Assembly (NCBI GenBank): GCA_002842395.1 | Contig: PHCV01000015.1 | Coordinates: 1 to 64,000 of the forward strand | Origin: Betaproteobacteria bacterium HGW-Betaproteobacteria-11 | Lineage (GTDB): Bacteria; Pseudomonadota; Gammaproteobacteria; Burkholderiales; Rhodocyclaceae | Length of the DNA stretch: 64,000 nt | Reading direction: 5' to 3' | Part shown: piece by piece, positions 42,448 to 64,000 of the stretch | Layout: each line of letters begins with the position of its first letter | Position numbering within the stretch: position 1 is the first letter of the stretch | Position numbers and translations under genes: made by a program | Notes under the pieces: generated by a model | What the model was told of the DNA's origin: nothing | What the model saw: only the letters and a program-made list of their open reading frames with translations | Database searches by the model: none

Positions 42448-42523
<76 letters not shown>

Positions 42524-42609: not shown

Positions 42610-44481
42610 TCAACCGGTGGTGAAAGGTGATCGCACAGTCTTTTCATTTTCCGCCGGGCTGCGGTACTCCGCCACCCGCGCCCGCAGTCCGTTTTTGGTG
42701 GCGGCCTCGTCGCGCAGCGGCGCGGCCAGCCAGGCTTCGAGCTCGGCAAGCCAGTCGCCGTCGGGTACGCCCTCGGGCCGGGCGATGCGCAGTTTGGGGT
42801 GCGGCGTCGGCTGCGTCGCCTCGCCATCGGCGAGCAGTTCCTCGAAGAGCTTTTCGCCGGGTCGCAGGCCGGTGAATTCGATGCGGATATCTTCCTCGCC
42901 GAAGCCCGAGAGCCGGATCAGGTCGCGCGCCAGATCGGCGATTTTCACCGGCTCGCCCATGTCGAGCACGAAAATCCGCCCGCCCGCCGCTTCCCGGCTG
43001 GCCAGCAGCCCGGCCTGCAGCACCAGTTGCGCCGCCTCGGGGATCAGCATGAAGTAGCGGATGATCTCCGGATGCGTCACCGTCACCGGCCCGCCGGCGG
43101 CGATCTGCTCGCGAAAGCGCGGAATCACGCTACCGGAAGAACCCAGCACGTTGCCGAAGCGCACCATCACGAAACGGGTGGTCGCCGACTCTGCCTGCAG
43201 GGCCTGGCAGGCCAGCTCGGCCAAGCGTTTGCTGGCGCCCATGACATTGGCCGGATTGACCGCCTTGTCGGTCGAGATCAGCACGAATTCGCGCGCGCCG
43301 TGGGCCATCGCCGCGCGGGCGACGTTGAGCGTGCCCTGCACGTTGTTCCTCACCGCCGCCCAGGCATTGGCGTTTTCCATCAGCGGCACATGCTTGTAAG
43401 CCGCGGCATGGAACACCACTGCCGGCCGCACTTCGGCGAACACTTGCGCCAGCCGGGCCGCATCCTTTACATCGCCGATTACCTCGGCCAGCGGCAGTTC
43501 CGGAAACTGGCCGGCGAATTCCTGCGCAATGCGATACAGCGCATATTCCGACTGCTCGAACAACACCAGTTGCGCCGGCGCAAAGCGCGCGATCTGGCGG
43601 CACAACTCGGAACCGATCGAGCCGCCGGCGCCGGTCACCAGCACCACCCGGCCGCCGAGCAACTCGGCCAGCCCTGCGCTATCGAGCGCGATCGGTTCGC
43701 GGCCGAGCAGGTCTTCGAGCTCGACCTTGCGCAGCTGCGACACCGCCACCCGGCCGGAGAGCAGATCGTCCATGGTCGGCACAGTGAGTACGGAAAGACC
43801 GGCCTTTGTTGCTGCTTCCGCCGCCCGCCGGCGCACCCCGGCGGCCACATGCGGCATGGCGATCACCGCATGGCGAACGCCGAGTTTTTCCGCCACCGGC
43901 CCCACCTTGGCCAGCGACGCCAGCACCGGCACATCGAGCACCCGGCGGCCGATCTTGGCTGCATCGTCATCAAGGAAACCAACCACCCGCCACTGCCGCG
44001 TCCCCGCCAGCGCGCGGGCAAGCTCCACCCCCGCGCTACCGGCGCCAAGTACCAGCAGCGGCTCGCCCCCCAGTTCGCCGAGCGAGAGCAGATGCCCATC
44101 CTTCCACGAGCGGTAGGCAAAGCGCGCACCGCCCATCGCCAGCACCAGCAGCAACGGATGCAGCACCAGCACCGAACGCGGCACATCGACCAGACGCTGG
44201 GTCATGAACAGCACCAGCGGCACTACCAGCGCCGCCAGCCCCACCGCCAGCAGGATGCGCTTCAGATCCGGCAGGCTGGCGAAGCGCCACATCCCGCGAT
44301 AGAGGCCGAAACGATAAAAGCTCGCCGCGTGCACCGCCAGCACCCAGGGCAGCGTCATGCCGATGGCGTGCCAGACGGTCGCCGTCGCATTGAAATTGAA
44401 GCGCAGCAAAAACGAGGCAACCCAGGCCAGCGCCACGGCAAAGAGATCGAAGAGGATGACGGCGAGGATGCGAGTGGTCAT
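42610..44481 (-). CDS. pglF: Membrane-bound nucleotide-sugar 4,6-dehydratase (PglF/WbpM type)
   Basis: 623 residues: four N-terminal membrane segments, a CoA-binding-like Rossmann domain (VLGAGSAGVEL, about 140-250) and the C-terminal SDR dehydratase domain with VTGAGGSIGSELCRQI. The catalytic triad has Met in place of Tyr (VMGASK), typical of large membrane 4,6-dehydratases acting on UDP-GlcNAc. It would give the 4-keto-6-deoxy sugar that the PglE-like gene aminates. Last gene of the glycan operon. Confidence 0.88.
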   Translation of the reverse strand: MTTRILAVILFDLFAVALAWVASFLLRFNFNATATVWHAIGMTLPWVLAVHAASFYRFGLYRGMWRFASLPDLKRILLAVGLAALVVPLVLFMTQRLVDVPRSVLVLHPLLLVLAMGGARFAYRSWKDGHLLSLGELGGEPLLVLGAGSAGVELARALAGTRQWRVVGFLDDDAAKIGRRVLDVPVLASLAKVGPVAEKLGVRHAVIAMPHVAAGVRRRAAEAATKAGLSVLTVPTMDDLLSGRVAVSQLRKVELEDLLGREPIALDSAGLAELLGGRVVLVTGAGGSIGSELCRQIARFAPAQLVLFEQSEYALYRIAQEFAGQFPELPLAEVIGDVKDAARLAQVFAEVRPAVVFHAAAYKHVPLMENANAWAAVRNNVQGTLNVARAAMAHGAREFVLISTDKAVNPANVMGASKRLAELACQALQAESATTRFVMVRFGNVLGSSGSVIPRFREQIAAGGPVTVTHPEIIRYFMLIPEAAQLVLQAGLLASREAAGGRIFVLDMGEPVKIADLARDLIRLSGFGEEDIRIEFTGLRPGEKLFEELLADGEATQPTPHPKLRIARPEGVPDGDWLAELEAWLAAPLRDEAATKNGLRARVAEYRSPAENEKTVRSPFTTG

Positions 44482-44521: not shown

Positions 44522-44619
44522 GTCATTCCGGACGGCGCGCAGCGTCGATCCGGAATCCAGTCGGGAGCCAAGGCGAAGTCAGCGGGCCATTCATGGATTC
44601 CTAGCGGGCCCGGAATGAC
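44522..44619. repeat. 98-base palindromic element of the REP family
   Basis: Ends are a 10-base inverted repeat, GTCATTCCGG (44522-44531) and CCGGAATGAC (44610-44619), with further inner pairing. Related in ends to the GTCATTCCCGC elements at 34.1 and 40.0 kb. It supplies the last codons of the pglE-like gene. Confidence 0.8.
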
Positions 44620-45898
44620 GCGGCAAGGCGGAGCTTTGTTGCGAACGAACATTCGCCGTCTCGCCAACGCCGACTTTTTGCGTGGCGGCACGCATCACTT
44701 TGACCACGACGCCAATCGTGGCGGACATCTCGGCCTCGCCCAGCGTCGGGTGCACCATGAACATCAGGCTGGTCTCGCCCAGCCGCTGCGCCACGGGCAA
44801 TCTCGCCGCCGGGCTCCAGCCGCGAGCGGTGAAAGCATGCTCGCGATAGATTTCCGGACAGCTGCCGGCAAGGCAGGGCACGCCCTCGGCATTGATCGCC
44901 TCGATGACCCGTGCCGTGTCCCAGCCCGACGCCAGCACCGCGGGCTCGACGAAGACATAGTATTTGTAATAAGCGTGGCCGATCCCGGTCCCGGGACGGG
45001 TGGCCCGCAGTCCCCGAACCGTCGCAAAGCCCTCATCCAGAATCGCCGCATTGCGCTGTCGCACGGCCAGCCAGTGCGGCAGCTTGCGCAACTGCAACCG
45101 ACCGATGGCCGCCTGCATCTCGGTCATCCGGAAATTGCTGCCGAAAGATTCGTGCAGCCAACGGAATCCCGGTGGATGCGGACGGTTGAACACCGCGTCA
45201 TAGCTTTTTCCGTGATCCTTGTAGGCCCAGGCCTTCTGCCACAAGCGATCATCGCTGGTCACCAGCAGCCCGCCCTCGCCGCCGGTGGTCATGATCTTGT
45301 CCTGGCAAAACGAAAACGCCGCGGCATCGCCCAGGCTGCCCACCGGACGGCCCCGGTAGGTCGCGCCATGCGCCTGGGCGCAGTCTTCCACCACCTTGAG
45401 ACCGCGTTCGCGCGCCAGCGCCATGAGCGAATCCATGTCGCACGGCCAGCCGGCCAGATGCACGGCGACGATGGCCCGGGTGCGCGGCGTCAGTACGGCG
45501 CGCACGGTTTCCGCGGTCAGATTCTGGCTCAGCGGATCGACATCGGCCACCACAGGCACCGCGCCGCGCGCCACCACGCAGCTCGCCGAGGCGATGAAGG
45601 TACGCGCCGGCACGATCACTTCGTCGCCCGGCCCGATGTCCAGCGCATAAAGCGCCAGCTCCAGCGCCAGGGTGCCATTGGCCAGCGAAATGGCGTGGCG
45701 CGTACCGGTGAAGGCAGCGAATTCCGCCTCGAACTGCCGGCATTCCTCGCCCGTCCAGTAATTGACCTTGCCCGAGGCAAGGACCGTCGTCACCGCCTCG
45801 ATTTCATCGGTAGCGAAAACCGGCCACGGCGGAAAGGGAGCATCGCACAACGAACGCCCACCATCGAGCGCCAGCTTATCGGAGACCGGGGCGCTCAT
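44591..45898 (-). CDS. pglE: DegT-family sugar aminotransferase (PglE type)
   Basis: 435 residues. PLP aminotransferase: NGTLALELAL, EDCAQAHGA, PLP Lys in SFCQDKIMTTGGEGG, and FRMTEMQAAIG. Between PglF- and PglD-like genes it should aminate the 4-keto sugar at C4 on the way to bacillosamine. The natural end is probably near VVVKVMRAA; the following about 25 residues (QKVGVGETANVRSQQSSALP...) are encoded by copy 9 of the dispersed motif and by the REP element. The ATG overlaps the pglD stop by 4 bases. Confidence 0.86.
   Translation of the reverse strand: MSAPVSDKLALDGGRSLCDAPFPPWPVFATDEIEAVTTVLASGKVNYWTGEECRQFEAEFAAFTGTRHAISLANGTLALELALYALDIGPGDEVIVPARTFIASASCVVARGAVPVVADVDPLSQNLTAETVRAVLTPRTRAIVAVHLAGWPCDMDSLMALARERGLKVVEDCAQAHGATYRGRPVGSLGDAAAFSFCQDKIMTTGGEGGLLVTSDDRLWQKAWAYKDHGKSYDAVFNRPHPPGFRWLHESFGSNFRMTEMQAAIGRLQLRKLPHWLAVRQRNAAILDEGFATVRGLRATRPGTGIGHAYYKYYVFVEPAVLASGWDTARVIEAINAEGVPCLAGSCPEIYREHAFTARGWSPAARLPVAQRLGETSLMFMVHPTLGEAEMSATIGVVVKVMRAATQKVGVGETANVRSQQSSALPRHSGPARNP
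44663..44678 (+). repeat. Dispersed 16-base motif, copy 9
   Basis: GCCAACGCCGACTTTT preceded by TTCGCCGTCTC; in the pglE-like gene it reads KVGVGE. Confidence 0.8.
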
Positions 45899-46503
45899 GC
45901 GTCGGCTTCCATGTCCCGGATGACGATCGTGCCCGCCTTGACCAGACAGCCGGGACCGATGCACACACCCGGCAGAACCACCGCGCCGGCACCCACCAGA
46001 GTGCCCGCGCCCACCGTTGCGCCGCCGCACAGCACCGCCCCTGGCGCGACATGCACAGCGGCTTCTATGTCGCAGTCATGCTCGACGATGGCGCCCGAGT
46101 TGATGATCGTGTTCTCGCCGATGCGAGCCTCGGCATTCACCACCGCCCCCGGCATGATGAGCGTACCCGCGCCGATTCGGGCCGAGCGCGCGACCACCGC
46201 CGCCGGATGCACCACGCAGACCAAGGTCAACCCATGCTCGCCAAGCCAGCGGGCCGCCGCGGCACGCGCGCGATTGTCGCCAATGGCCACGATCACGCCA
46301 TCGATTTCATCACGCCGGGCCAGCAGCACCTCCCGTCCGCCCGCCAGCGGATGGCCAAGCAAAGTGGCACCCGCCAGCGGCCGGTCATCCACCACGCAGG
46401 CCACCGTCAGGCCCGCAGTGCACTCGATGGCATCCACCACCACCTTGCCATGGCCACCGGCGCCGAAAACGGCAATCCGCTGCTTTTGCTGTTCCATGTC
46501 CAT
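45895..46503 (-). CDS. pglD: Sugar acetyltransferase, PglD/NeuD family
   Basis: 202 residues: N-terminal Rossmann-like domain with AVFGAGGHGKVVVDAI and a C-terminal left-handed beta-helix (GTLIMPGAVVNAEARIGENT). The catalytic His of PglD-type enzymes is in IVEHDCDIE. It would N-acetylate the 4-amino sugar with acetyl-CoA, completing UDP-di-N-acetylbacillosamine. Length and domain order match PglD. Confidence 0.87.
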   Translation of the reverse strand: MDMEQQKQRIAVFGAGGHGKVVVDAIECTAGLTVACVVDDRPLAGATLLGHPLAGGREVLLARRDEIDGVIVAIGDNRARAAAARWLGEHGLTLVCVVHPAAVVARSARIGAGTLIMPGAVVNAEARIGENTIINSGAIVEHDCDIEAAVHVAPGAVLCGGATVGAGTLVGAGAVVLPGVCIGPGCLVKAGTIVIRDMEADA

Positions 46504-46531: not shown

Positions 46532-47128
46532 CTATCGACCCGCCGTGCCACGAAACTTCTCCGTGGTGGCAAAGCCTTCCTTCGACACCCCCGCGCCGGA
46601 AAAAACCCGTGCCACCGTCATGACCAGTATTTTCAGATCCAGCCAGAAACTCTGGTGATCCACATACCAGACATCGAGGGCAAATTTTTCTTCCCACGAC
46701 AACGCATTGCGTCCCATGACCTGGGCCCAGCCGGTAATTCCCGGCCTGACCTCGTGCCGCCGCGCCTGCTCGGCACTGTAGAGAGACAGGTATTCCATCA
46801 GCAGGGGACGCGGCCCGACCAGGCTCATGTCGCCCTTCAGCACATTGATAAGCTGAGGCAATTCGTCCAGGCTATAGCGGCGCAGGAAGGCACCCAGCGG
46901 CGTCAGACGCGCTTCGTCGGACAACGGCTGGCCATCCGCCCCCGCCACCGCCATGGTGCGGAACTTCAGCACCTCGAAGGGCAGGCCTTTCAGTCCGGGC
47001 CGCTGCTGACGAAACAATACCGGTAACCCCATGCGCCAGGCTATGAATGCTGCAGTCGTCATAATTACCGGCGACGACAGCACGACGAGCAACAGGGCAA
47101 CGACGAAGTCAAACAAGCGTTTCTGCAT
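46532..47128 (-). CDS. pglC: Initiating phosphoglycosyl transferase (PglC type)
   Basis: 198-residue monotopic phosphoglycosyl transferase: N-terminal re-entrant membrane helix (DFVVALLLVVLSSPVIM), KFRTM, the Asp-Glu catalytic dyad in SLDELPQL, and DMSLVGPRPLL. It transfers the sugar phosphate from a UDP-sugar to undecaprenyl phosphate. The small size, without the extra membrane domain of WcaJ/WbaP, and its neighbours fit PglC using UDP-diNAcBac. Confidence 0.9.
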   Translation of the reverse strand: MQKRLFDFVVALLLVVLSSPVIMTTAAFIAWRMGLPVLFRQQRPGLKGLPFEVLKFRTMAVAGADGQPLSDEARLTPLGAFLRRYSLDELPQLINVLKGDMSLVGPRPLLMEYLSLYSAEQARRHEVRPGITGWAQVMGRNALSWEEKFALDVWYVDHQSFWLDLKILVMTVARVFSGAGVSKEGFATTEKFRGTAGR

Positions 47129-47143: not shown

Positions 47144-48277
47144 TCAGCCAAGCAAGCGCTCATAAAAGCGCACCCAGACCTGCGTGACGGCATCGCCGGA
47201 AAACAGCCGCAACACCCGCTCGCGGGCGGCCAGGCCCAGCGCGATTCGGCGTGGCGCGTCGCGGGTTAGCACGGACATCCCCCACAAAATCTCTTCCACA
47301 TCACCGGGCTGATGCAGCAGGCCGGTCACCCCATCCGCCACCGCATCGGTGACGCCATAGATGCGCGAAGCGATCGCCGGAATCCCCGCCGCGGCCGCTT
47401 CGATGACGACCATGCCAAAACCTTCGCGGTAACTTGGCAGACAAAATACATCCGCCGCAGCCATGAAACCCTCGGGGCGATCGGTATAACCAATAAAACG
47501 GGCGCGCGACAGCGCTGCCCCGAGACGTGATTCCATCTCGCCGCGCAGACTTGCCTCGTCCGGACCGACGACCAGCAGCCAGGCGGCGGGATCGTCCAAC
47601 CGAGCAAAGGCCTCGGCCAGATCCAGCACCCCCTTGTCGCGATTGAGGCGACCAAGAAACAAAAAAGCGACAGCGTTCTGCGGTATGCCCAGGGAAAGAC
47701 GAATATCGGTGCGAATCCTGTCGTCAGGGTGAAAGCGCATGCCATCCACGCCACAAATCGACCCCTCTCCCAGCACCTGAATCTTTTCCGCGGCGACGAT
47801 CCCCTCGGCAATCAGGAAATCCCGCTGTGACGGGCTGTCCGCCAGCACATGCGTGGCAAGGTGCGCCATCAGCCGGTCTGCCGCCTTGAGCAACAGGCGT
47901 TTCCAGCCCGTGCGTGTGGCCCACACCTGACCGGTGAAGATATGAATCCGCCGCGGCACCCGGGCCATCGTGGCGGCCAGCAACGCCAGCATGCCGGCCT
48001 TCGGCGTGACCGAACTGACCGCCGCATAGCGCTCGCGCCGGAACAGAACGAAAAGTCGCAGTAGAGCCGCCAGATCGGCCAGTGGCGCAATCCGGCGTCG
48101 GATACGAACCGGAATGACTCGGGCATAAGCCGAAATCCCGCCTAGTTCGATGGGATTGTCAGCGTCTACGGCTAGATCGACCCTGTAACGTTTGCTCAAC
48201 GCCACAATATGACCACTCAGAAACGCCTTTGCCGTGAGTGGGCTAGAGACGACGAAACAGATCGTTGCGGCTGTCAT
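47144..48277 (-). CDS. GT4 glycosyltransferase (PglA-like)
   Basis: 377-residue GT-B enzyme: N-terminal acceptor domain (ICFVVSSPLTAKAFLSGHIV) and C-terminal nucleotide-sugar domain with FLFLGRLNRDKGVLDL and the E-x7-E motif in PSYREGFGMVVIEA. Its place next to the PglC-like gene suggests it adds the second sugar, as PglA does in Campylobacter; donor unknown. The ATG at 48277 overlaps the upstream stop (ATGA). Confidence 0.85.
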   Translation of the reverse strand: MTAATICFVVSSPLTAKAFLSGHIVALSKRYRVDLAVDADNPIELGGISAYARVIPVRIRRRIAPLADLAALLRLFVLFRRERYAAVSSVTPKAGMLALLAATMARVPRRIHIFTGQVWATRTGWKRLLLKAADRLMAHLATHVLADSPSQRDFLIAEGIVAAEKIQVLGEGSICGVDGMRFHPDDRIRTDIRLSLGIPQNAVAFLFLGRLNRDKGVLDLAEAFARLDDPAAWLLVVGPDEASLRGEMESRLGAALSRARFIGYTDRPEGFMAAADVFCLPSYREGFGMVVIEAAAAGIPAIASRIYGVTDAVADGVTGLLHQPGDVEEILWGMSVLTRDAPRRIALGLAARERVLRLFSGDAVTQVWVRFYERLLG

Positions 48278-51129
48278 GGCGAATCGGTGACATACCGCCG
48301 TGCCGCAGCGAACCCCCACTCGCCAATCATCAGGAAAGCGAAGGCTAAAATCGCAGCGGCCACGCCGGCATAGCTGCCGTAATGCAGACAGACCGCCAGC
48401 GCCAGATACAGTATCCAGTTCGTCACGATGAACACCATGTCCACCCAGTTCACTTCGCCCAGCCGACAGAATAAAAGCAGTAACAAACCCGCCGCCACGG
48501 CCGCAGCCAGCGTCATCGAAAGTGCAATACCCGGGACACCTATCCGGTTCATCAATGCCAGATTGAGCAGGATGTTCGCCGCCAGGCCGACGAGCGAAGC
48601 CAGCATCACCCGGCCCGGGCGGCGAATGGCAATAGCAAATTTCAGCAGCAGCACGTTGACCACGAAGAACGGAAGCTGCAGGATGCCGTAGGCCATCACC
48701 CGCGAGACGAGGCTCACCTCGGCAGAGCCGAATGCGCCACCCTCGAAAGCCAGGCGCACGAACGGCTCGGAGAGCAGGTGCAGCACGACGGCTACGGGAA
48801 TCGATATCGTGGTTCCGGCCAACAGCAGAAAGGATAATTCCCGGCGCGCATCGAGCAGGCGGTTCTGTGCCATGTAGTGCGAGAAGTAAGGCAACACCAC
48901 CGACGCGATGGCGGTGCCGATCAGCGCGGTAATGAAGATCACGGCCTTGCTACCCAGGCCAAGCGCCGCCACGCTGCCTTCCGGCAGTACCGAGGCCATG
49001 GCCGTACTCACCGGCACGGCCAGTTGCATAAACACCGCCGTCGCCACCAGCGGCAGATACTGCGAAAGAAACTGTCCCGTTCCGGCCGTCTCGATTTTCG
49101 TCGCAGTCAGCAGCGACACGCCGCGTAGCGCAAGCACCCGATGGACCAGGGTGAGGTTGACCAGCTGGCCGGCGAACATGGCCACCACCACCACGATCGC
49201 GCCATGCGTACTGCCGAAGATCAACAGGGCGACGATAGTAATAACCGGCACGATCGCCTGCGCCGCGGCCGGTACGACATAGTGACCGAGGGCGTTGAGT
49301 AGGCCGTTAGCAAGCGTGACCAGTCCACTGAAGATAAAAATCGCCAGCATCCACCACATGATCGTTTGCGTCAGGGCCGTCTTTTGCGGCAGCGTCGCCC
49401 AACCCGCCACCTCGAGCAGCCACGGCCCCGCCATGGCCAGCAGTATTGCCAGCACCAGTGCCGCGGCAAAAAACAGCAGCGCCACCCGCCGTGCCAGCGC
49501 CTGCGCTGCAGCTGGCGAATCACGTTCCCGAACCGCCAGGAAAACCGGCACGATGGCGGTGCCGATCGGTACACTGAACACCGCCACCAGAAACATCGGC
49601 ATCACCGTCGCAGCCACGAAGGCATCGAGTTCGCTGCCGAGGCCGAACAGCCGTGCCATGACGATGTCGCGAATAAAAAGTCCGACGAAAGTAACAGCGG
49701 TCACTGCAGCGACGGTAATGCCGGAACCGATCAGGACCGATCTGGCCTGCCGCATTTCCTTGTCTGCTGCCGGCACGGGCGTCTCGCGCAACGCAGTATC
49801 ATCGCCGCCCTTCGGCAGCCAGCCGCGCCGCTCGAAAAAACCCAGCCAGCCGGCCAAGCCGATCAGTATCAGCAGAAACAGGTAGGGATAGCGAATGCGG
49901 TAGAGCGTACCGACGTTGGCGATGGTGATGCCATACAGCGTCAACAGGGCCAGCGAGAACACCATCACTGCCAGCATGGTGCGCGAACGCCCCAGCCCAA
50001 GCCACAGCGCCAGCAGCAGGCCCGGAGCGATCAGGTACCAGATCGCCATCTCGCCAACCGCCACCAGACGCGTGACGCTGAGCTTCTCGAACCACAGCGA
50101 GGGAAACGGCGCGAACAGCGCGATCTGCAGTGCACGCGGCGCGTAAGCCACTACCTGCGGCGTGCTGGCCGGAAGTCTGTCGGTATCGTAGAGCGAACCG
50201 GCCTGGATCTTCAGTTCTTCGTCGATCAGTCCAGCCCGCGTCCGCGCCATCACCTCCACATATTTCTCGATAACCTGCGGCATCCAGGATGTCGGCTGCC
50301 ATGTCCATCCGGTCGTTCCCTTGGCCGTCCACCTGGCGTAGCCTTGCTCATCGGCGCCGGTCCGGGGCGCCATGTACGCCGCCATGCCCACCAGAATGAC
50401 AAGCGCCAGTTGCAAGGCAAGGGCACGTCGGTATGCAGACGACCCACCGTTCTTCCCGATCGAAGCGAGTTTGACGGTCAGCATCACCAACATGCCGCCA
50501 AGCACCGGCATCAGGCTGTATGGGCGAACAAACACAATCAGCGCCATGCCGGCCAGTGCCGCCGCAAGAGCGGTCGGTACCTGCCAACAATCCGGCTTCC
50601 CGGTTTCGGTGACAACCCAGGCGGTCAGCACCAGCATCGTGCCGGCAATCGCAAACCCGTCCTTGGAGATTTGGCCGTACCAGTTCAGCGCCGAGGGAAA
50701 AATGACGAACAGCGTGCCTGCGACCATGCCGGCCAGCGTGCCGACGCGGCCCGGCCACAGCATGCGGCCAAGCAGGAGCAACAACGTGCCGCTAAGCGCA
50801 TGAATGGCGGCATTCACCGGCACCATCAGCGAAGGATCATCGCCGAATAACGCGTAAAGACCCGCCAGTAGCGCAACATTGCCAGTCGCGCCAACCGCCG
50901 GATAGATTCGCCATTCCGTCCAGCCGTGCAGGCGGATGTGCTCGGCCAGGTCAACGGCGACGGCATGAAAATAGGCGGAATCTCCTTCCACCAGCCCCTG
51001 GCCGTGGTGAGCCGAAGCAACCAGCGGCAGCAGGAACTTCTGGAACAACAACGCCGCCGCCGTTGCGTAGCTGAAGAACAGCAGGAAAACGATGGCCGGG
51101 GACAAGGGCCGGAGACTGCGTTCGGTCAT
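48274..51129 (-). CDS. Fusion of a GT-C-like membrane glycosyltransferase and a MurJ/MVF-fold flippase
   Basis: 951 residues and about 24 membrane segments. Residues 1-440 resemble GT-C/GT39-like polytopic enzymes: a first membrane helix (IVFLLFFSYATAAALLFQKF), then an acidic loop GLVEGDSAYFHAVAV comparable to the GT-C active-site loop. Residues 459-951 are a complete MurJ/MviN-like domain (GLFIRDIVMARLFGLGSELD, IPIAVVLH-like segments, MNRIGVPGIALSMTLAA). An internal ATG at 49755 preceded by AAGGAA could also give the flippase part alone. Donor, lipid substrate and whether the parts work together are unknown. Coupled to the next gene by ATGA. Confidence 0.75.
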   Translation of the reverse strand: MTERSLRPLSPAIVFLLFFSYATAAALLFQKFLLPLVASAHHGQGLVEGDSAYFHAVAVDLAEHIRLHGWTEWRIYPAVGATGNVALLAGLYALFGDDPSLMVPVNAAIHALSGTLLLLLGRMLWPGRVGTLAGMVAGTLFVIFPSALNWYGQISKDGFAIAGTMLVLTAWVVTETGKPDCWQVPTALAAALAGMALIVFVRPYSLMPVLGGMLVMLTVKLASIGKNGGSSAYRRALALQLALVILVGMAAYMAPRTGADEQGYARWTAKGTTGWTWQPTSWMPQVIEKYVEVMARTRAGLIDEELKIQAGSLYDTDRLPASTPQVVAYAPRALQIALFAPFPSLWFEKLSVTRLVAVGEMAIWYLIAPGLLLALWLGLGRSRTMLAVMVFSLALLTLYGITIANVGTLYRIRYPYLFLLILIGLAGWLGFFERRGWLPKGGDDTALRETPVPAADKEMRQARSVLIGSGITVAAVTAVTFVGLFIRDIVMARLFGLGSELDAFVAATVMPMFLVAVFSVPIGTAIVPVFLAVRERDSPAAAQALARRVALLFFAAALVLAILLAMAGPWLLEVAGWATLPQKTALTQTIMWWMLAIFIFSGLVTLANGLLNALGHYVVPAAAQAIVPVITIVALLIFGSTHGAIVVVVAMFAGQLVNLTLVHRVLALRGVSLLTATKIETAGTGQFLSQYLPLVATAVFMQLAVPVSTAMASVLPEGSVAALGLGSKAVIFITALIGTAIASVVLPYFSHYMAQNRLLDARRELSFLLLAGTTISIPVAVVLHLLSEPFVRLAFEGGAFGSAEVSLVSRVMAYGILQLPFFVVNVLLLKFAIAIRRPGRVMLASLVGLAANILLNLALMNRIGVPGIALSMTLAAAVAAGLLLLLFCRLGEVNWVDMVFIVTNWILYLALAVCLHYGSYAGVAAAILAFAFLMIGEWGFAAARRYVTDSP

Positions 51130-51479
51130 GCTGCGCGTCCCTGCCAGACCGCAACCAGTTCGCACAGCGCGTCATCCAGTTTCATGACATCATTGTATCC
51201 AAGCGCGCCGCAAATCCGCTCCGTGGAATACCGTACACGGCTCGTCAGGATATCCACTTGTGCTGGCGTCAACTTCCCTGGCGCGATCCGCTCGGCAAGC
51301 TCGACGGCAATCGCATGAAAGTAGGCCGAATCTCCTTCTACCAAGCCTTGTCCGTAGTGAACTGAAGTCACTATGGGCAGGAAAAATTTCTGGAAAAGAA
51401 GCGCCGCCGCCGTCGCAAAGCTGAAGAACAGCAGGAACACAACCGCAGGAGGGGGAGTCTCAAGGGTGCGTTCAGTCAT
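51126..51479 (-). pseudogene. Truncated chimeric duplicate of the GT-C N-terminus
   Basis: 117 codons. Residues 1-54 (MTERTLETPPPAVVFLLFFS...) are about 75 % identical to the start of the neighbouring fusion protein, including GLVEGDSAYFHAIAV, then an unrelated tail begins (APGKLTPAQVDILTSRVRYS...CGALGYNDVMKLD). The tail resembles the C-terminal segment of some sulfotransferases. I infer deletion between an older GT-C gene and a downstream gene. It still has a start codon and the ATGA coupling, so it may be translated. Confidence 0.6.
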
Positions 51480-51565
51480 GAGGAGTAAGCGATTGAGAAA
51501 TTTGGATACCACCTGAATCCGCGTTTGAAAGGGTTCAAACTTGTCCGGATTTACAAACCCGCCTC

Positions 51566-52375
51566 TCATCTAAAAATTTTGCAAACGATTAAGCGGCGAA
51601 CATATTTCAGCAGTGAAAATAAAATAGACACGGATAACAAGCCTGCGCCGATTTTTCTTTGTTGTTTTAGGAAGAGAAGGTTATCTAACTCCCCCTTTTC
51701 CATTGCCCACAGCCTGGCACTTAGTCCGCCGTCCCCGTAAGGGTGCTTGAGAATATATGCTAAGGCGATTTCCAGCCGTACAGTTTTATAGCCTGCAAAT
51801 GCTAGTTGCTGCCATAGGCGCAAATCTTCTGCGAAAAAATGTCCACCCGTAAAACGAACAGGAAGATCTTTTTTAAGCATGACAGTTGGCGTAGAAAATG
51901 GGTTGCGAAATAGAAGACTTACCGGGCTGATTACACTTGCAGTTGGCTCTGTGTCTGACACAATAGGCGCGTTAAAAGCAGAAGCAGCGTAAGGACAATG
52001 ATGACCACAAGCAGCAACATCTTTGTGCAACGACATATACTTACGTTGGATTCGTATTTTCTCAGGATGCCAAACATCATCTGCATCAAGAAAGGCGATG
52101 TACGGTTGAGTGGCCGCATTCCATCCGACGTTTCGTGCTGCAGACGGTCCTTTATTGAACGGCAAGGACAATACTCTCACCCATTCAGAATACTGCCGTT
52201 CGAGAGCCTTCAGAACGCCAAGCGTGTCATCGTTACTTCCGTCATCGACAAGCAAGACTTCGGCAGGACGATGGGTCTGTGCTGCAACTGACGCAAGTGC
52301 TCGTTCAATAGTCCCAGAACATCGGTAGCAGGGGATTACGACAGACACTGGAGCGACAGTAAGGTTATCAATCAT
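51566..52375 (-). CDS. GT2 family glycosyltransferase
   Basis: 269-residue GT-A enzyme: VSVVIPCYRCSGTIERAL, LLVDDGSNDDT, and the donor-metal motif FLDADDVW. The C-terminus is basic and hydrophobic and may associate with the membrane. Base composition is clearly more AT-rich than the flanks, suggesting separate acquisition. Sugar donor unknown. Confidence 0.85.
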   Translation of the reverse strand: MIDNLTVAPVSVVIPCYRCSGTIERALASVAAQTHRPAEVLLVDDGSNDDTLGVLKALERQYSEWVRVLSLPFNKGPSAARNVGWNAATQPYIAFLDADDVWHPEKIRIQRKYMSLHKDVAACGHHCPYAASAFNAPIVSDTEPTASVISPVSLLFRNPFSTPTVMLKKDLPVRFTGGHFFAEDLRLWQQLAFAGYKTVRLEIALAYILKHPYGDGGLSARLWAMEKGELDNLLFLKQQRKIGAGLLSVSILFSLLKYVRRLIVCKIFR

Positions 52376-52388: not shown

Positions 52389-53468
52389 TTACTTTATTTT
52401 GCTTTTGAGCCAATAAATGATTGAGTTGATGACCGCCCCCGCTCTTCGCATTGAGACATAAATACTACTTTGCTTATCTATCCCGAGCGCCGATAGCAAA
52501 AACAGTACAGAGGCACGGCCCAAATTACGTCCTAGCAATCGCGTCTGCGTGGCCGTAATTAGTGAAATCCAGTTCCTGAGCACCTGGGAGTCTTGCTTCG
52601 CCAAGCGCGCAAACACTCTAAAGCTGTTGAACAGTATTATTTCCTTGGCTTCCGGCGGGTAACGACATAACAGATGCTTGAGTGCGGGCAACAGGTCATC
52701 AGAGCGCCCATGACCTCGGCCTATTACATCGATTATTCGCATTGACTTGTCATCGCTCAAGAAGGATAGTAATGCGCGCCAGTGCCGCTCACGAACGATA
52801 TTTGTAGCATGTGCTTGTTCTAAACGGTGCAGAGTGGTTACTTGGCCGGAGTGGATTCTGTAACGTAAGACCACCTGTGGAACGTTGGCCATTCGCATAC
52901 CTTCGGCCCAAGCACGTTGCCATAAGTCATAATCTTCACAGTGCATGAATTCACTACGATATCCAAGTTGAGCGAAGGCGGTTCGCCTGCCAACGATAGC
53001 AGGATGAGCGAAGGGAACCCCAAATAACAACTGAACTTCACATCCTTCAGGTGTCGTCGGATAAGTCCAGATTGTCTTCCACCCCCCAACACATTCAATC
53101 GCCCCGCCGCAAAAATCAAATGCAGACGTTTTTAGAAAATCCAATTGGCGCGACAATCTATCCAGCACTGAGACATCATCCGCATCCATGCGCGCGATCC
53201 ATTCGCCTCGTGCAAGCCCAATGCCTTCGTTAAGTGTGGCCACAAGACCGCGTGCCTCACGGCACACGAGACGGATGCGCGGGTCAAGGCGAGCATAACG
53301 CTCCAGGATGGCAGGCGTTTCATCGGTCGAGCCGTCATCGATGATGAGCAGCTCAAAATCCTTGAAGGTCTGCGCAAGAATCGATTCGATCGCCTCGCCC
53401 ACGTACTGTGCGGCATTGTGCACGGGCAGAAGCACTGTCACGGAGGGATGCTTGATTGCGCGGTTCAT
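52389..53468 (-). CDS. GT2 family glycosyltransferase
   Basis: 359 residues, GT-A fold: VTVLLPVHNAAQYVGEAIES, LLIIDDGSTDET and ARMDADDVS, then a helical C-terminal region. The ATG at 53468 overlaps the fucosyltransferase stop by 4 bases. Linkage and donor unknown. Confidence 0.86.
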   Translation of the reverse strand: MNRAIKHPSVTVLLPVHNAAQYVGEAIESILAQTFKDFELLIIDDGSTDETPAILERYARLDPRIRLVCREARGLVATLNEGIGLARGEWIARMDADDVSVLDRLSRQLDFLKTSAFDFCGGAIECVGGWKTIWTYPTTPEGCEVQLLFGVPFAHPAIVGRRTAFAQLGYRSEFMHCEDYDLWQRAWAEGMRMANVPQVVLRYRIHSGQVTTLHRLEQAHATNIVRERHWRALLSFLSDDKSMRIIDVIGRGHGRSDDLLPALKHLLCRYPPEAKEIILFNSFRVFARLAKQDSQVLRNWISLITATQTRLLGRNLGRASVLFLLSALGIDKQSSIYVSMRRAGAVINSIIYWLKSKIK

Positions 53469-54346
53469 AAAATGATCCAGCCGGGACAGTAGATATCTTT
53501 GGTATCGAACGACGTAACCCGGAACCACTGGCGTGGAGCGATCACGATTTTCTCCGGAGAAGGGTTGAGCCATGCCCCCCACCAGCTAAACGAGCTGTTC
53601 GCAATGAGATGATGGCGGCAGGCGGCCATGAGCTGCATGTCCCGATAGCTGTCCGGCCCGCGATTGTGATCGACCAGCGTGATCGGCCCGGGGAGTGCGA
53701 GATTTTTCGCAACCCATTCCGGTTCATCCGAAAAAACAAAAAAACGGGGAGATGCAACGCGCCGGGTAATTTCCGTGACGGCCGCCGGGTAGTAGGCAGA
53801 CAAATCGACGCCATGAACCCGCCGGACGGTCGGATCGCGGGAGAAATCGCCACAACGGACATGGAGGGAGACGCTGTTGCAGGCCGCCATCTGCTCGGCG
53901 AGCGCTGCGCTGCGTGCATCGAGCGGCAGTGCAAAGCGAAACCGGGCGCGCACTTCCGGCTCGATGGCGGCGAAATAGCGGGCGCTCTGCCAATAACCCT
54001 CCAAATAGGCGAAAGGCCCGATCGCCTCGAATCCCGGCCAGTAGTGGAAATGGGGTTCGATCACCCAGCTTGTGGGTCGCAGAGACCGGAAGACTGGCCG
54101 GGCCATGATGCGTCGCGCCAAGGAATGAGAGCACCAGCGCAACACCTGGCGCATTTCCGACTCGCTCGCCCGCAGCACATCCAGTCCGAACACCCGCGGG
54201 AGCTCAAGCCCCTGATGGAGCTGGGTGCGATCGAACCATTCGAGATCAAAACGCAGCGCGACACCATGCCGCTGGGCGAGTGCCAACCCCGCCGCATGCT
54301 GAAACATCTGGTTGCCCAAACCCCCACTGATGCGAACGACGATCAC
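53465..54346 (-). CDS. GT11 alpha-1,2-fucosyltransferase-like protein
   Basis: 293 residues. VVRISGGLGNQMFQHAAGLA at the N-terminus and the GDP-fucose motif SLHVRCGDF (HxRxGD type) plus HHLIANSSFSWWGAWL are signatures of GT11. It would transfer fucose from GDP-L-fucose, which manC-gmd-fcl in this operon can supply. The start is a GTG at 54346 overlapping the wzx stop (GTGA). Confidence 0.88.
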   Translation of the reverse strand: MIVVRISGGLGNQMFQHAAGLALAQRHGVALRFDLEWFDRTQLHQGLELPRVFGLDVLRASESEMRQVLRWCSHSLARRIMARPVFRSLRPTSWVIEPHFHYWPGFEAIGPFAYLEGYWQSARYFAAIEPEVRARFRFALPLDARSAALAEQMAACNSVSLHVRCGDFSRDPTVRRVHGVDLSAYYPAAVTEITRRVASPRFFVFSDEPEWVAKNLALPGPITLVDHNRGPDSYRDMQLMAACRHHLIANSSFSWWGAWLNPSPEKIVIAPRQWFRVTSFDTKDIYCPGWIIL

Positions 54347-55809
54347 ACGCCCTCCCGCAAGCGATGGGAAAACAGAAATCGCACATCGGGCGAAGTTCTC
54401 AAATGAATGGCGACCGGGACGGCAACGATGGCCGACACGGCCAGCAGATACACCAAGGCCGGCACAGGATCGAATCGCGTTGGCAGCATGAAACTGGCCG
54501 TAACCGCCACCGCCAACACAGCCAGGGCTGGCAGCAGGCGCCTGAGCGAGACATGAATCGGCATACGCCCGCGCATCGCAGCCACATTGAGGGCCATTTT
54601 GAGATAGAGCGCGGCCAGTAGCACATGGCCGAACTGGCCGGGTTGCCATGCAAACATGGCAGAGAGCCCCGCCCCGGCAAGGACGCCGACCGCGCCGACG
54701 GCAAACGGCAATACCGTCGGCGCGAAGTTCTTCTCGGCCTGGGCGACAAGCTGCCAGGCATTCCCGATCAAGCGCGCGATTTCCGCCGCCACGCCCACGA
54801 ACACCCACTGCGCCGCCTCGTGATAACGACTATCGGTGAGCAAACGCAGCACATGCGGAGCCGAGAGCAAAAGAAACGCGCCCCACAGCACATAAAGCGG
54901 CAACAGCACATTGACCATGCTGCTCACGATGCGGGCATGGTGCGGGGCAGAAGCCTCGCCCGACAGCGCCTTGAAGAAATAGGGGTACACCAGCTGCGTG
55001 ACGATCGACTCCAAAAGGGCCGTCATCTGTGCGGGCACACTCAGCGCCAGTGCAAATAGCCCAAGGAGGGACAAAGACCAGGCACGCTCCAGAATCAGGC
55101 GATAGCCATTGCCCTCCAGCCAAAGCAGCGAAGTCACCAGCGCCAACGGCAGGGCAAAGCGCAGAAAATCGGCTTGCAGCAATAGCTCTCTTGCCCGATA
55201 GCGCTTCGCTTCAGCTTCGCTCTTCCCGGCCCGACGCAACACACGCCAAGCGCCCAGATGCGCAAGTCCGGCGCCCACCGCCTGACCCGCGAGCCAGGCA
55301 AGCGCCGAAGGCCAGAAAAAACTCAAGGCCGAGGAAAACGCCAGACCGGAAGCCGTTGCCGTCAATTGCCAGGTCACGCTCTCACGGCGATAGCCAAGCA
55401 TGTTGAGTCGGCTCACATCCATGCCTTGCAGGGTAAACAAATAGATCGCCGCCGCGACCGCAAGTCCAGTGCAATAAGCCAGGGACAGTCCACTGCCCGC
55501 CTGACTCTGCGCGAACCAGACAGCAGCAAGCACACCGGTCAGCACACTGACCCAAAGCCAGTAACGGGCATAAGCCTTGATGCGTGAGTCAAGGCTGCCC
55601 TCTGCATGCCACTGGTGGGTATGACGGTTGAGATATTGCCCGGAAGGGTTGAGCAAAATCAGGCCGGCAAACGCCTGGAAGGCGGTCAGCAGAGCCAACA
55701 GGCCGTAAGCATCGGGTGGCAGCAGGGTCGTCATCATCCGTAACGCCAACAGCAGAAGGATTGCATTGGCAATGCGCCCACCCACGATCCACAACGCCTC
55801 AGAGCGCAA
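54343..55809 (-). CDS. wzx: Wzx-type oligosaccharide flippase
   Basis: 488 residues, about 12-14 membrane segments, MATE/MOP superfamily polysaccharide transporter (GGRIANAILLLLALRMMTTL, PDAYGLLALLTAFQAF). It would flip the lipid-linked repeat to the periplasm. The likely start is TTG at 55809 with AAGGAG seven bases upstream, overlapping the GT10 gene by 11 bases. The locus thus carries two flippase domains, this one and the MurJ-like fusion. Confidence 0.86.
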   Translation of the reverse strand: MRSEALWIVGGRIANAILLLLALRMMTTLLPPDAYGLLALLTAFQAFAGLILLNPSGQYLNRHTHQWHAEGSLDSRIKAYARYWLWVSVLTGVLAAVWFAQSQAGSGLSLAYCTGLAVAAAIYLFTLQGMDVSRLNMLGYRRESVTWQLTATASGLAFSSALSFFWPSALAWLAGQAVGAGLAHLGAWRVLRRAGKSEAEAKRYRARELLLQADFLRFALPLALVTSLLWLEGNGYRLILERAWSLSLLGLFALALSVPAQMTALLESIVTQLVYPYFFKALSGEASAPHHARIVSSMVNVLLPLYVLWGAFLLLSAPHVLRLLTDSRYHEAAQWVFVGVAAEIARLIGNAWQLVAQAEKNFAPTVLPFAVGAVGVLAGAGLSAMFAWQPGQFGHVLLAALYLKMALNVAAMRGRMPIHVSLRRLLPALAVLAVAVTASFMLPTRFDPVPALVYLLAVSAIVAVPVAIHLRTSPDVRFLFSHRLREGV

Positions 55810-56848
55810 TACCCTGCTCCTTCAGATCGGCCACGATGTGGGACGCGACGGTCTCGGCAAAGCATTCGGCACTGAAGGGATAAGCGCGCGGACTTTCCAG
55901 AAAACCGCGGATGGCTTCCTGGTATTGCCTGTAGGTCTTCTCCGGCATGGCTTTCAGGCAGGCATACAGCTTTTCATGCGTGGCGAACGCACGGCGATCG
56001 ATGAAGCACTCTGCCGGAATGCAGTCGAGCACGTTCGGCGCGCCCCAATAGACCGGCACGCACCCCGCGCTGAAAGCATCGAAAACTTTTTCCGTAATGT
56101 AACCTCGAAAACCCGTCGCATTCTCGTAGCAGATCGCAAACCGTGACCTGCCCAGGACGCTGGCCTTTGTCTGCACCACCCCGTGCCAGGAAGGAAATTT
56201 CCGCCGTTTCCACGACGCCACCTCCTCTATGCGATGAAGGAGCCGCCCAACAATACCCGGTCGTTTTGGCGATAAATTCCACCCCGCACCGTACAACTGA
56301 AAATCCCCAGACGCGTTCCTTTCAAACCAGCGGATCGTTCGCACTCTCTCTTTATAAAGGTCACGCTCATCATTTCTCACGGGTAGTGCCTTGTTGGCAG
56401 CAATCAGCGCGCACAGCAAATGACGATTGGGAAAACCATCGGGTTCTTGCGGCCGCAGCCTGTTGCCAAGCTGGATATTGATCGCCTTTCCTGCCTCGAT
56501 CAGGTCAACGTTCCAAGCAAACCGCTGCCGATAGCGGCGCAGCGTCTCCCATTCCCCATTAAGCGAATGAATGAGCGCGCATTCTGAGAGCACGACGTGG
56601 CTCAACGGATGGTCAATCTGTTTCCGCGCGTTTATATGCAGTTCGAAGTCCGCCTTTCGTCCTGCTGGAAGCACGGTGGTCAACAGAATACCGTGATGAG
56701 CAAACTCGGCGCGCAACAATGACCATTTGGCAAACAGCCCATCCGGATTGGCCGACACATCGAAGATGCGGTCACCGGCTTGACCATCCTGCACAAGGAG
56801 GCCAACGATGCGTGGTCCGAATGTGTCAGGCTGATCAGAAGTAGCCAT
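55799..56848 (-). CDS. GT10 alpha-1,3/1,4-fucosyltransferase-like protein
   Basis: 349 residues. The C-terminal GDP-fucose site shows the GT10 motif: FAICYENATGFRGYITEKVF followed by DAFSAGCVPVYWGAPNV. The N-terminal acceptor domain (about 1-180) is less conserved. ATG at 56848; an in-frame TTG nine bases earlier is less likely. Overlaps the sulfotransferase gene by 14 bases. Confidence 0.88.
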   Translation of the reverse strand: MATSDQPDTFGPRIVGLLVQDGQAGDRIFDVSANPDGLFAKWSLLRAEFAHHGILLTTVLPAGRKADFELHINARKQIDHPLSHVVLSECALIHSLNGEWETLRRYRQRFAWNVDLIEAGKAINIQLGNRLRPQEPDGFPNRHLLCALIAANKALPVRNDERDLYKERVRTIRWFERNASGDFQLYGAGWNLSPKRPGIVGRLLHRIEEVASWKRRKFPSWHGVVQTKASVLGRSRFAICYENATGFRGYITEKVFDAFSAGCVPVYWGAPNVLDCIPAECFIDRRAFATHEKLYACLKAMPEKTYRQYQEAIRGFLESPRAYPFSAECFAETVASHIVADLKEQGIAL

Positions 56849-57794
56849 ATATTCCAAAATCCATTTGCATACGATCCGCGAGACGCTGGTTGCCGTGACG
56901 ATGAATCTTTCGGATATGATCCAAACTCTCCGTCGCCACGCTCATTGGATAAGCGCGTTCCAGGCCTAAAACGCGCATGATGCTTGGATCATGTTTGGCA
57001 ACTTCATGCAACAGCCTCCGGAATCTAGGCATCCAGACGAAGGGGATCGCCTGATCCACTTTCAACCCATGATAGACATCATCCCGCCGACTTGGATTTT
57101 CTTGTCTATCTGAAGGTGGTGCGATCGATTCATCCACGCCAAGAAACCGGTTGCAATGAACAAAAAAGTCCTTGGGCGACGAAGCGAGTTGTTCGTAAGG
57201 TAAGGCAAGCACATTGTCCTGCCCAAAAACGGCATCGTAAATTTCCAGGTAGGAAGACCATTCCATATCCACCACAGCCTGGCCCGGAGCCGCGGCACAG
57301 AAAAGAGTATCGAAGGTCACAAAACGCGCGAAGCGATCTTCAGCCAATAAAAACTGGCGCCAGAGCGAGACGGCATAATCTGTCTGCCGCCGGGTAATCA
57401 ACACTATACGGCCGATGCCGGCGGACTTGAGCAATGCCGCATGGTGTCTCGCAATGGGTAACGCAAGACTGGACAGCCCCTCAGCACTCAAGAGAGCGCT
57501 CAGCCCCTCGGTTTGTGAGGCAAACCTTCTTGCGGCCATCTCCCATTTTGGGAAACTCGACCCAACTGTCCGCTGATAGTTTTGTTCTCTCTCCTCTCGC
57601 GAAAAGAACTTGCTTCTCGCCAGGATATCCGCATACCAGACAGCATTCGTCTCAAAAACAAAACCCAGCTCCTCGGGCCAGGCAAACGGTGGTTGCGTGG
57701 AAAAAAAAGGGCAGCCGATTTTTGCGAAATAGTGGAGTTGCAAATAAGTGGAGGCTGCTTTGGGCAAACCAATGTGCGCGATATTCAATGCCAT
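56835..57794 (-). CDS. Sulfotransferase-like P-loop protein
   Basis: 319 residues. N-terminal IAHIGLPKAASTYLQLHYF matches the 5'-phosphosulfate-binding loop of PAPS-dependent sulfotransferases, and RIVLITRRQTDYAVSLWRQF resembles the 3'-phosphate-binding segment (R...S). PAPS could come from the CysC encoded in the operon. ATG at 57794 follows GGAG; an ATG at 57806 is also possible. Acceptor sugar unknown. Moderately AT-rich. Confidence 0.78.
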   Translation of the reverse strand: MALNIAHIGLPKAASTYLQLHYFAKIGCPFFSTQPPFAWPEELGFVFETNAVWYADILARSKFFSREEREQNYQRTVGSSFPKWEMAARRFASQTEGLSALLSAEGLSSLALPIARHHAALLKSAGIGRIVLITRRQTDYAVSLWRQFLLAEDRFARFVTFDTLFCAAAPGQAVVDMEWSSYLEIYDAVFGQDNVLALPYEQLASSPKDFFVHCNRFLGVDESIAPPSDRQENPSRRDDVYHGLKVDQAIPFVWMPRFRRLLHEVAKHDPSIMRVLGLERAYPMSVATESLDHIRKIHRHGNQRLADRMQMDFGIYGYF

Positions 57795-57818
57795 GTGCTC
57801 CAACATACAAGTACAGAA

Positions 57819-58490
57819 TCAGCGGCGTCGCCAACTTTCCCATACGAATTCATAGTTCCACATTTCAGTATGCGTTTTCGCAAGTTCAGCGCGGAGAGCG
57901 AGACGGCGTTCTTCGGCGCGATCCACGAAGTTATGGAACTGCACCTGCAGATAGCGAACTTTTTCGATCCAGCCAGAAATGATGATTGCTTCCAGCAAAT
58001 CGTATTCCCCACCTTCGATGTTGATTTTGAGCAAGTCAATGTGATCGACTCCAAGCTCGGGCAGGGCCTCGTCGATTTTTCTCAAACGCGCGATCCGCGC
58101 CGTTACAGCGGCTGTCGTTTGCGAGAACCGCGATCCGTCTGCGCAGACCTCCATAGGGAGAAGGGCATCAGTCGCCCCCAGGCCGTAGTTGAAGACCTCG
58201 ATCTTTTCATTTCCGGAGAAACGACTTTTGCACTGCCTGTAGAACTCCTCCACAGGCTCGAACACAAGAACACGACAGCCGTATCGTTCGTGAATCTGGT
58301 TCGCAAAGTCGCCCTGATAGCCCCCCACATCCAAGACAAGGCTCGTCGAATCCAAAGGATAAGCAAGACGCAAGGTCTGATCGCCTCGGTCATTGAACCA
58401 GCGTTGCACTTCTCGTACAAAGGGATCCCTTTTTATATACAAACGGTAGCGGTACCTTAGTGCATGACCCACTTCTTTCAGGAACTTCAT
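57819..58490 (-). CDS. FkbM-family methyltransferase
   Basis: 223 residues. SAM motif VLDVGGYQGDFANQI, VFEPVEEFY, and DLLKINIEGGEYDLLEAI are FkbM signatures; these enzymes O-methylate sugars or polyketides. Its start overlaps the previous methyltransferase stop by 4 bases, so it belongs to the glycan operon and probably methylates a hydroxyl of the glycan. Confidence 0.86.
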   Translation of the reverse strand: MKFLKEVGHALRYRYRLYIKRDPFVREVQRWFNDRGDQTLRLAYPLDSTSLVLDVGGYQGDFANQIHERYGCRVLVFEPVEEFYRQCKSRFSGNEKIEVFNYGLGATDALLPMEVCADGSRFSQTTAAVTARIARLRKIDEALPELGVDHIDLLKINIEGGEYDLLEAIIISGWIEKVRYLQVQFHNFVDRAEERRLALRAELAKTHTEMWNYEFVWESWRRR

Positions 58491-59023
58491 GCTTTATTTT
58501 CGCACTCCACATTCAGGCTGATCAGAATGCCGTTTTCCTTGTCCATGTGCGGGATGTACGCTTGCGAATAATCATCGACAGCGGCATGTTCGGTCTGGCG
58601 CCAGTCGTACCGCCGAACGGTTGCAAACCCGGCCCGTTCGAGCTCGCGCTTCAAGGTGTCGAAGTCGAAAACGTTGTAGTGAATGTTGTAGAGGTAATCC
58701 TGGCGGCCAAACAGTGCGCCCACGACCAGGTCAAGATTCTTGTATTTCTGATAAACCTCGCACAGCTTTTCAAAATCCGGCACCGAAACGCGCAAAATCC
58801 CGCCGGGTTTGAGCACGCGACGCCATTCCGTAAGAACACGCGGTACATCACGGCGCTTGAAATGCTCCAGCACATGGCAGTTGTAGATAAGATCAACGCT
58901 TGCATCCGGCAAGAATGAAAGGTTGTCGATGGTCGCCACATGATCGACGTGCGGATAATCGACAGCGTCGATGTGGATGAAGCCGGGAATGTGGCGTTTG
59001 CCACAGCCGAGGTGCAATTTCAT
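58487..59023 (-). CDS. Class I SAM-dependent methyltransferase
   Basis: 178 residues: [38 protein letters not shown] and LKPGGILRVSVPDFEKL are typical of methyltransferase type 11 proteins in polysaccharide loci. The start shares one base with the acetyltransferase stop (TAATG). Target not evident. Confidence 0.84.
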   Translation of the reverse strand: MKLHLGCGKRHIPGFIHIDAVDYPHVDHVATIDNLSFLPDASVDLIYNCHVLEHFKRRDVPRVLTEWRRVLKPGGILRVSVPDFEKLCEVYQKYKNLDLVVGALFGRQDYLYNIHYNVFDFDTLKRELERAGFATVRRYDWRQTEHAAVDDYSQAYIPHMDKENGILISLNVECENKA

Positions 59024-63724: not shown

Positions 63725-63809
63725 GTTTTCTGCCTGACTTGGGCGCGGTTCACAGCCACCCTCTCGACCGTCCTCGCCAAGGCTTGCGGCCGAACGATTG
63801 TGCTCGCGG

Positions 63810-64000
63810 TCACCATAACGGCACGCCCTCCTTCGCGGCAATTTCATGAATGGGCTGGCGTGTGATATTGGCCGCGGCAAGCACCACATCCACCTTGCGG
63901 CCGCCCAGGCGGCGTTCGAGCCGGGCTTCGAGCCGGGAAGCCAGGAGGGGCGCATTTTGCACGGGGTGCGGCAGTTCCACCAGCAAGTCGATGTCGCCGC
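63810..64000 (-). CDS. Nucleotidyltransferase-domain protein (partial)
   Basis: The last 62 codons of a gene entering from the right. [12 protein letters not shown] carries the GD-D-D type metal residues of minimal nucleotidyltransferases, and [20 protein letters not shown] follows, as in MNT/MntA antitoxins or Kan-type small NTases. A HEPN partner, if any, would be outside the window; nothing in the 85 bases before cysC encodes one. Confidence 0.7.

Follow-up and report, generated by a model that had tools for sequence, protein, structure and literature searches.

The stretch of DNA analysed here (the window) comprises 64,000 nucleotides of contig PHCV01000015.1 from Betaproteobacteria bacterium HGW-Betaproteobacteria-11. 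Within a surface-sugar gene cluster it contains a gene for a membrane protein of 951 residues, whose first part is predicted to function as a sugar-transferring enzyme and whose second part is predicted to be a flippase for lipid-linked sugars. Both halves are members of known superfamilies (GT-C glycosyltransferases and MurJ-type flippases). Pfam and NCBIfam hold no model for the joined protein and none for its N-terminal domain (N-domain), and no description of such a fusion was found in the titles and abstract starts of the open-licence PubMed Central literature. The features of the fusion gene are given below; the coordinates, the minus strand and the length of a single 951-residue protein, as stated in a preliminary description of this DNA, were all correct.

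48274..51129, minus strand: GT-C/MurJ fusion protein, single open frame with ATG start, 951 aa
49810..51129, minus strand: N-terminal GT-C-like domain, residues 1-440 (approximate boundary), from hhalign comparison to the PMT_2 set and conserved residues
49735..49809, minus strand: linker, residues 441-465, predicted cytoplasmic (hand-placed topology checked by Lys+Arg density)
48277..49734, minus strand: MurJ-type flippase domain, residues 466-951
50980-50982 and 50659-50661, minus strand: conserved GT-C residues D50 and D157, respectively
49666-49671 and 48946-48948, minus strand: positions of the diphosphate triad in the flippase half, R487-D488 and K728, respectively

The open reading frame tool also lists an upstream GTG start (963 aa). 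The ATG at position 51129 is favoured because it agrees with the homologues at loci L018 and L004.

The second half, described there as MVF/MurJ-like, indeed matched the MurJ model PF03023 over residues 491-913 (E 4.7e-43, 147.9 bits versus a cut-off of 27.4), and the first half could be linked to a family (PMT_2) by profile comparison only. The MurJ model TIGR01695 matched residues 469-896 with 160.5 bits, which is below its equivalog cut-off of 235.55. A phmmer search against solved structures gave six MurJ sequences matching the second half, and the sole other match (residues 255-339, E 0.83) is at chance level. Among plasmid records the MurJ half was matched in 20, none of them reaching 80% query coverage. 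We compared nine MurJ halves, those of seven of the eleven fused proteins described below and of the adjacent genes at L042 and L039, with E. coli MurJ. Arg24 and Asp25 are kept and Arg270 is replaced by Lys in 9/9 aligned rows, Asp39 is kept in 7/9, and Arg18, Arg52 and Glu57 are lost in all nine. The corresponding residues R487, D488 and K728 are invariant across all eleven fused proteins. In its passages on these residues, PMC6465408 describes Arg24-Asp25-Arg255 (Arg270 in E. coli) as a putative substrate-binding triad at the diphosphate, and gives Arg18, Arg24, Arg270, Asp25 and Glu57 as essential or conserved. Because Arg24-Asp25 are kept and a Lys takes the place of Arg270 in this putative triad, the MurJ half is probably a flippase for a diphosphate-linked lipid. 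It is probably not a lipid II flippase, since Arg18, Glu57 and also Arg52, which we take to be a further essential or conserved residue of MurJ, are lost. The half thus resembles MurJ (MVF family, MOP superfamily) in its PF03023 score, its Arg24-Asp25 pair and its cation at position 270, and differs from it in the equivalog score, in the lost residues and in being joined to a GT-C domain. The host genome (G000; 2.34 Mb, 97% complete) encodes a canonical MurJ on another contig.

For the N-terminal half (about 440 residues) nothing in Pfam scored above cut-off, and a solved-structure profile search with 19 N-domains gave nothing at E values up to 10. However, when the alignment of these 19 N-domains was compared by hhalign with a set of 25 PMT_2 (GT-C) proteins, a match with 91.1% probability (E 1.1e-6) was obtained. 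This match spans residues ~42-191, with D50 aligned to the DE motif and D157 to the second Asp. It supports the GT-C layout that had been proposed for the first half on the basis of its EGDSAYFH motif and many membrane segments. The other comparisons gave 0.4% for Wzy_C, 0.2% for MurJ and 0.1% for EpsG (5 EpsG sequences). Hence the N-domain does not consist of extra helices of the MurJ family, a possibility considered in the preliminary description, and hhalign found no relation to Wzy_C (PF04932) or EpsG, in a comparison that left CAZy families GT122-GT135 aside. As a control the N-domain alignment was reversed; it then scored 27.8% (E 6.4e-4) with Wzy_C and no more than 0.5% with any other set. 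The PMT_2 and Wzy_C sets correspond to 25 and 27, respectively, of 30 fetched loci each, the others having been filtered out; members were picked automatically (the most hydrophobic long frame over the match), and not all picks were checked. The eight unfused rows alone scored 91.6% against the PMT_2 set versus 61.2% for the eleven fused rows, and the GT-C relation therefore leans on the unfused relatives. Individually, 2 of the 19 N-domains reached PMT_2 (best 19 bits versus a Pfam cut-off of 26.1) and 5 of the 19 reached DUF6541, all under cut-off. DUF6541 was rejected as source family, with 0 of 120 genomes matching at E 1e-5. A search with PF14296 (0 of 200 genomes) was uninformative, as the controls were also without match.

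Both GT-C features, an acidic residue in the first outer loop (D50) and a second Asp (D157), are present. The EGDSAYFH motif corresponds to residues 48-55, and its Asp50 is kept in 19/19 N-domains, as are R298, W346, R411 and R413. Near-invariant are D157, K156, R332 and E360 (18/19 each, D157 being replaced by Glu in one) and R202 (17/19, Lys in two). The N-domain is like the PMT_2-type enzymes (GT39/GT83-like) in its profile match (residues ~48-203) with both acidic motifs aligned, but differs from them in that all its members stay under the Pfam cut-off and in that arginines 298, 332, 411 and 413 fall outside the aligned stretch. Hydropathy gave nine segments ahead of the linker, and a tenth was placed at residues 159-178, where homologues have one. 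With the N-terminus inside, the Lys+Arg density is 0.165-0.267 in the inner loops and 0.063-0.114 in the outer loops, in 11/11 rows. This topology would put the conserved N-domain residues outside and the linker inside; because segments were placed by hand, it is a check rather than a prediction.

The distribution of the protein was studied by searching its N-terminal half in overlapping samples at three levels, the family (297 genomes), the order (399) and the phylum (398), with matches in 10, 9 and 6 genomes, respectively (G000 included each time). Additional loci were drawn from a scan with the full 951-residue protein and from fetched stretches. The architecture was found in other genomes: eleven aligned loci are fused in one frame (the window, L018, L004, L037, L038, L040, L041, L050, L051, L052 and L053). 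The other ten share 30-74% identity with the window and are spread over several families of Pseudomonadota. Locus L005 was left out of the count since it is 99.97% identical to L004 over 11,963 bases; these two near-identical contigs, both from metagenome-assembled genomes, are titled Rhodocyclaceae and Gammaproteobacteria. The preliminary description had raised the possibility of a sequencing artefact joining two genes. We found nothing that supports it apart from one relative, L023 (8004-10891), which has the fused order with a frame interrupted inside the N-domain and which may reflect an assembly error or decay. The same join at eleven loci, with identities down to 30%, shows that the fusion is not an artefact, and we consider that explanation hardly credible.

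Close homologues are not encoded by two genes either, as had also been considered: the close ones are fused, and the split forms L039 and L042, in which the halves are adjacent genes (overlapping by ATGA in L042), are distant. In L021, of the same genus, the N gene and a MurJ-type gene (2412-3797) lie apart within one stretch; the latter is perhaps a second recruitment. Five loci (L019, L020, L022, L043 and L044) have an N gene without MurJ-type partner, and their genomes have canonical MurJ only, at E 1e-10. Canonical MurJ is also present in all but two of the 13 genomes that carry a fusion or an adjacent pair; none was seen in G885 (86% complete) and G943 (69% complete). Outside the count are a short match in G930 (residues 363-433) and weak matches with internal stops in G003 and G103. 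No relative was found in viral contigs.

In a tree of MurJ halves, the eleven fused proteins group with those of L042, L039 and L023 in a 14-member clade (support 97/97), 19 canonical MurJ proteins including that of E. coli are set apart (100/100), and the L021 protein lies outside the fusion-partner clade. Likewise, in the N-domain tree, which was made without L023, the eleven fused and two adjacent-gene rows form one clade (95/93) apart from the six others. Several rows have long branches. The identities of the two halves correlate with r = 0.97 (78 pairs). In the 55 pairs from the 11 genomes that also have a canonical MurJ, r reaches 0.95 with the partner MurJ half and 0.33 with canonical MurJ; after removal of close pairs (51 pairs) the values are 0.84 and 0.02, respectively. 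As pairs are non-independent we read the contrast of the r values and draw no probability from them. The sequences thus support, besides the flippase family of one half and the distant GT-C relation of the other, the conservation of the pair and the co-variation of its members.

The other features of the cluster are as follows.

47144..48319, minus strand: GT4 glycosyltransferase; likelier ATG at 48277, giving an ATGA overlap with the fusion stop
46532..47128, minus strand: PglC-like phosphoglycosyltransferase (Bac_transf, 198 aa)
45895..46503, minus strand: PglD-like acetyltransferase
44591..46030, minus strand: DegT/PglE-like aminotransferase; the listed start overlaps PglD and is approximate
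42610..44481, minus strand: PglF-like dehydratase (Polysacc_synt_2)
42448-42523, plus strand: tRNA-Phe, just past the PglF-like gene, at the cluster edge
51126..51569, minus strand: 147-aa frame that looks like a recombination scar (piece of a second fusion 5' end and tail of an epimerase-like gene)
51566-52375 and 52389-53582, minus strand: two GT2 glycosyltransferases
53465..54808, minus strand: GT11-type glycosyltransferase
54343..55809, minus strand: separate Wzx-like flippase (PF13440, 22.3 bits versus a cut-off of 23; 10 predicted membrane segments)
55799..56857, minus strand: GT10-type fucosyltransferase
58487..63338, minus strand: methyltransferase, hexapeptide transferase and GDP-fucose genes (Fcl-like, Gmd, ManC)

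The minus strand also carries a sulfotransferase-like gene (56835-57806; 21 bits versus a cut-off of 22) and an adenylylsulfate kinase gene (63107-63955), which, taken with the genes for GDP-fucose, point to a surface glycan that is sulfated and fucosylated.

The GT4 gene is located directly downstream of the fusion in 9/11 fused loci and is followed by a PglC-like gene in 8/11; the L004 stretch ends before that position, and L040 and L041 have neither gene. The genes upstream differ between loci. The conserved neighbours (GT4, PglC-, PglD-, PglE- and PglF-like) would start an undecaprenyl-diphosphate (undecaprenyl-PP) glycan and fix its reducing-end sugars, to which a flippase, and likewise a polymerase or transferase, has to bind. 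The 147-residue frame upstream of the fusion combines two pieces. One is 165 nt from the 5' end of a second fusion gene, with 76% identity to the intact copy; the other is the tail of the gene that directly precedes the fusion in L018, which we take to be an epimerase because of a nucleotide-binding motif recognised by eye. The G+C content, 64% in the segment between PglF and the fusion, drops to 54% in the frame and is 57% upstream. The frame looks like the scar of a cassette exchange within the glycan cluster, and the upstream block, including the Wzx-like gene, seems to derive from a cluster in which the fusion was likewise present.

The separate Wzx, already mentioned in the preliminary description, is thus represented by a Wzx-like gene just below cut-off. 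Among the eleven fused loci, seen as stretches of 7.9-20 kb that are often partial, three have such a gene: the window, L040 and L050. This raises the question whether the MurJ half flips at all or instead provides the GT-C half with a scaffold or a platform for binding, with the Wzx-like protein as the flippase. The loss of several MurJ residues would fit such a role, but not the invariant Arg-Asp-Lys of the eleven fused rows, and no other flippase-like protein was found in the partial stretches of L018, L037, L038 and L041. We regard a non-flipping MurJ half as quite improbable.

No Wzy or O-antigen ligase had been recognised in the preliminary description. This is true of the cluster, but the genome as a whole may differ: G000 has a single Wzy_C match, on a different contig, which is probably the lipopolysaccharide ligase because it is located beside three GT9 (heptosyltransferase family) genes and a GT4 gene. 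EpsG gave no match in G000. In 7 of 19 genomes searched (G757, G885, G323, G408, G447, G372 and G543), Wzy_C is encoded on the same contig as the fusion or pair.

We propose that the protein is a two-domain inner-membrane protein, in which the MurJ half would flip an undecaprenyl-PP oligosaccharide and the GT-C half would use the flipped glycan as donor at the periplasmic face, most likely in a Wzy-like polymerisation; we give this an even chance. Cargo, direct hand-over to the protein's own GT-C domain and type of transfer are what we infer here. Stated more generally, a single polypeptide would flip an undecaprenyl-PP repeat unit and polymerise or transfer it, joining Wzx-type and Wzy-type activity in one chain, and the N-domain would be a GT-CA enzyme with a lipid-PP-oligosaccharide donor outside GT66; this, too, could equally turn out right or wrong. 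Since the same pairing is found in related bacteria, flipping and use of the glycan may be one coupled step. The coupling of flipping to periplasmic glycan use, an idea of the preliminary description, is in this sense a sensible one, and the reaction itself may be polymerisation, en bloc transfer or addition of a sugar, with part of the probability assigned to none of the three. Polymerisation is our tentative first choice, somewhat short of an even chance, because the searched polymerase families gave no other candidate in the cluster.

In favour of the proposal are the fused and adjacent loci, the single clade in each tree, the co-variation of the halves, the Arg-Asp-Lys triad, the PMT_2 relation of the N-domain, the conserved neighbours, and the finding that the polymerase families searched gave G000 just one Wzy_C match, outside the cluster. 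Several observations weigh against it. The PMT_2 match of the fused rows alone is only 61.2%, and AlphaFold models made for a GT-C fold test are unusable (mean predicted local distance difference test scores of 36.0 and 32.6, from 3-row alignments). The Wzx-like genes of the window, L040 and L050 are separate from the fusion, and the Wzy_C proteins of the seven genomes above could be the polymerase there. Wzz gave no match in G000 at E 0.001; it is present in 12 of 20 genomes searched and in no case shares a contig with the fusion or pair, although this last point is weak since contigs are short. Finally, apart from GT66, the GT-CA families that Table 1 of PMC10920833 lists have lipid-P-monosaccharides as donors, and no polymerase is among these GT-CA families.

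The same evidence bears on two other reactions. In the first, the GT-C domain would move the whole, unpolymerised oligosaccharide to a protein or other acceptor, as does PglB, which belongs to GT66. The GT66 motif WWDYG is not in the fusion protein, there is no known acceptor protein, and the only Wzy_C gene, beside the GT9 genes, suggests ordinary O-antigen ligation. On the other hand, the core genes (PglF, E, D, C and GT4) resemble the pgl locus, G000 gave no Wzz match, and GT66 is the only GT-CA family for which Table 1 of PMC10920833 gives a lipid-PP-oligosaccharide donor. Such en bloc transfer is an unlikely but serious candidate. In the second, the protein would be a compact three-component periplasmic glycosylation system: the flippase half would move a single lipid-linked sugar, which the GT-C half would add to a finished glycan. 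This would fit the GT-CA relation of the N-domain, the co-occurrence of a GT-C enzyme and a MATE-family flippase in the system described in PMC11127046, and the Wzx-like and Wzy_C genes of some clusters, which could build the main chain. However, the partner that is conserved, a PglC-like enzyme, is an initiator of the PP-sugar type, and no GtrB/ArnC-type polyprenyl-phosphate sugar synthase was recognised among the cluster proteins, the two GT2 proteins having 0 and 1 predicted membrane segments and nothing near the ArnC cut-off. Addition of a single sugar is likewise rather doubtful.

If the proposed flipping and transfer by one protein is true, the fusion would represent a new glycosyltransferase family, and flipping and transfer would be physically coupled in one machine. 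Should an undecaprenyl-PP glycan serve as donor, the N-domain would represent a GT-CA-like family whose donor class is, within that subclass, given for GT66 only in Table 1 of PMC10920833. When flippase and periplasmic enzyme are separate proteins, it is difficult to establish whether the flipped glycan is handed over directly or first released to the membrane pool; a natural fusion together with adjacent-gene relatives makes this question testable. Finally, a MurJ-type flippase is seen here to be at home in surface-glycan clusters, and the proposal would mean that a MurJ-derived flippase has been recruited to surface glycans.

The system shares with the Wzx/Wzy pathway a flippase and a candidate polymerase in a cluster for a polyprenyl-PP glycan, but here these are in one chain, the flippase is MurJ-type instead of Wzx, the N-domain has no profile relation to Wzy_C or EpsG, and G000 is without Wzz match. 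With three-component glycosylation based on GT136, as described in the relevant part of PMC11127046, it shares a flippase and a GT-C enzyme, which are encoded there by separate genes together with a polyprenyl-phosphate sugar synthase, a component not recognised in the cluster here. The Campylobacter pgl locus is similar in having PglC-, PglD-, PglE- and PglF-like genes, a GT4, a flippase and a GT-C enzyme. Its flippase PglK is an ABC-type protein (PMC5395944), whereas in the protein described here a MurJ-type flippase and a PMT_2-like GT-C domain are fused.

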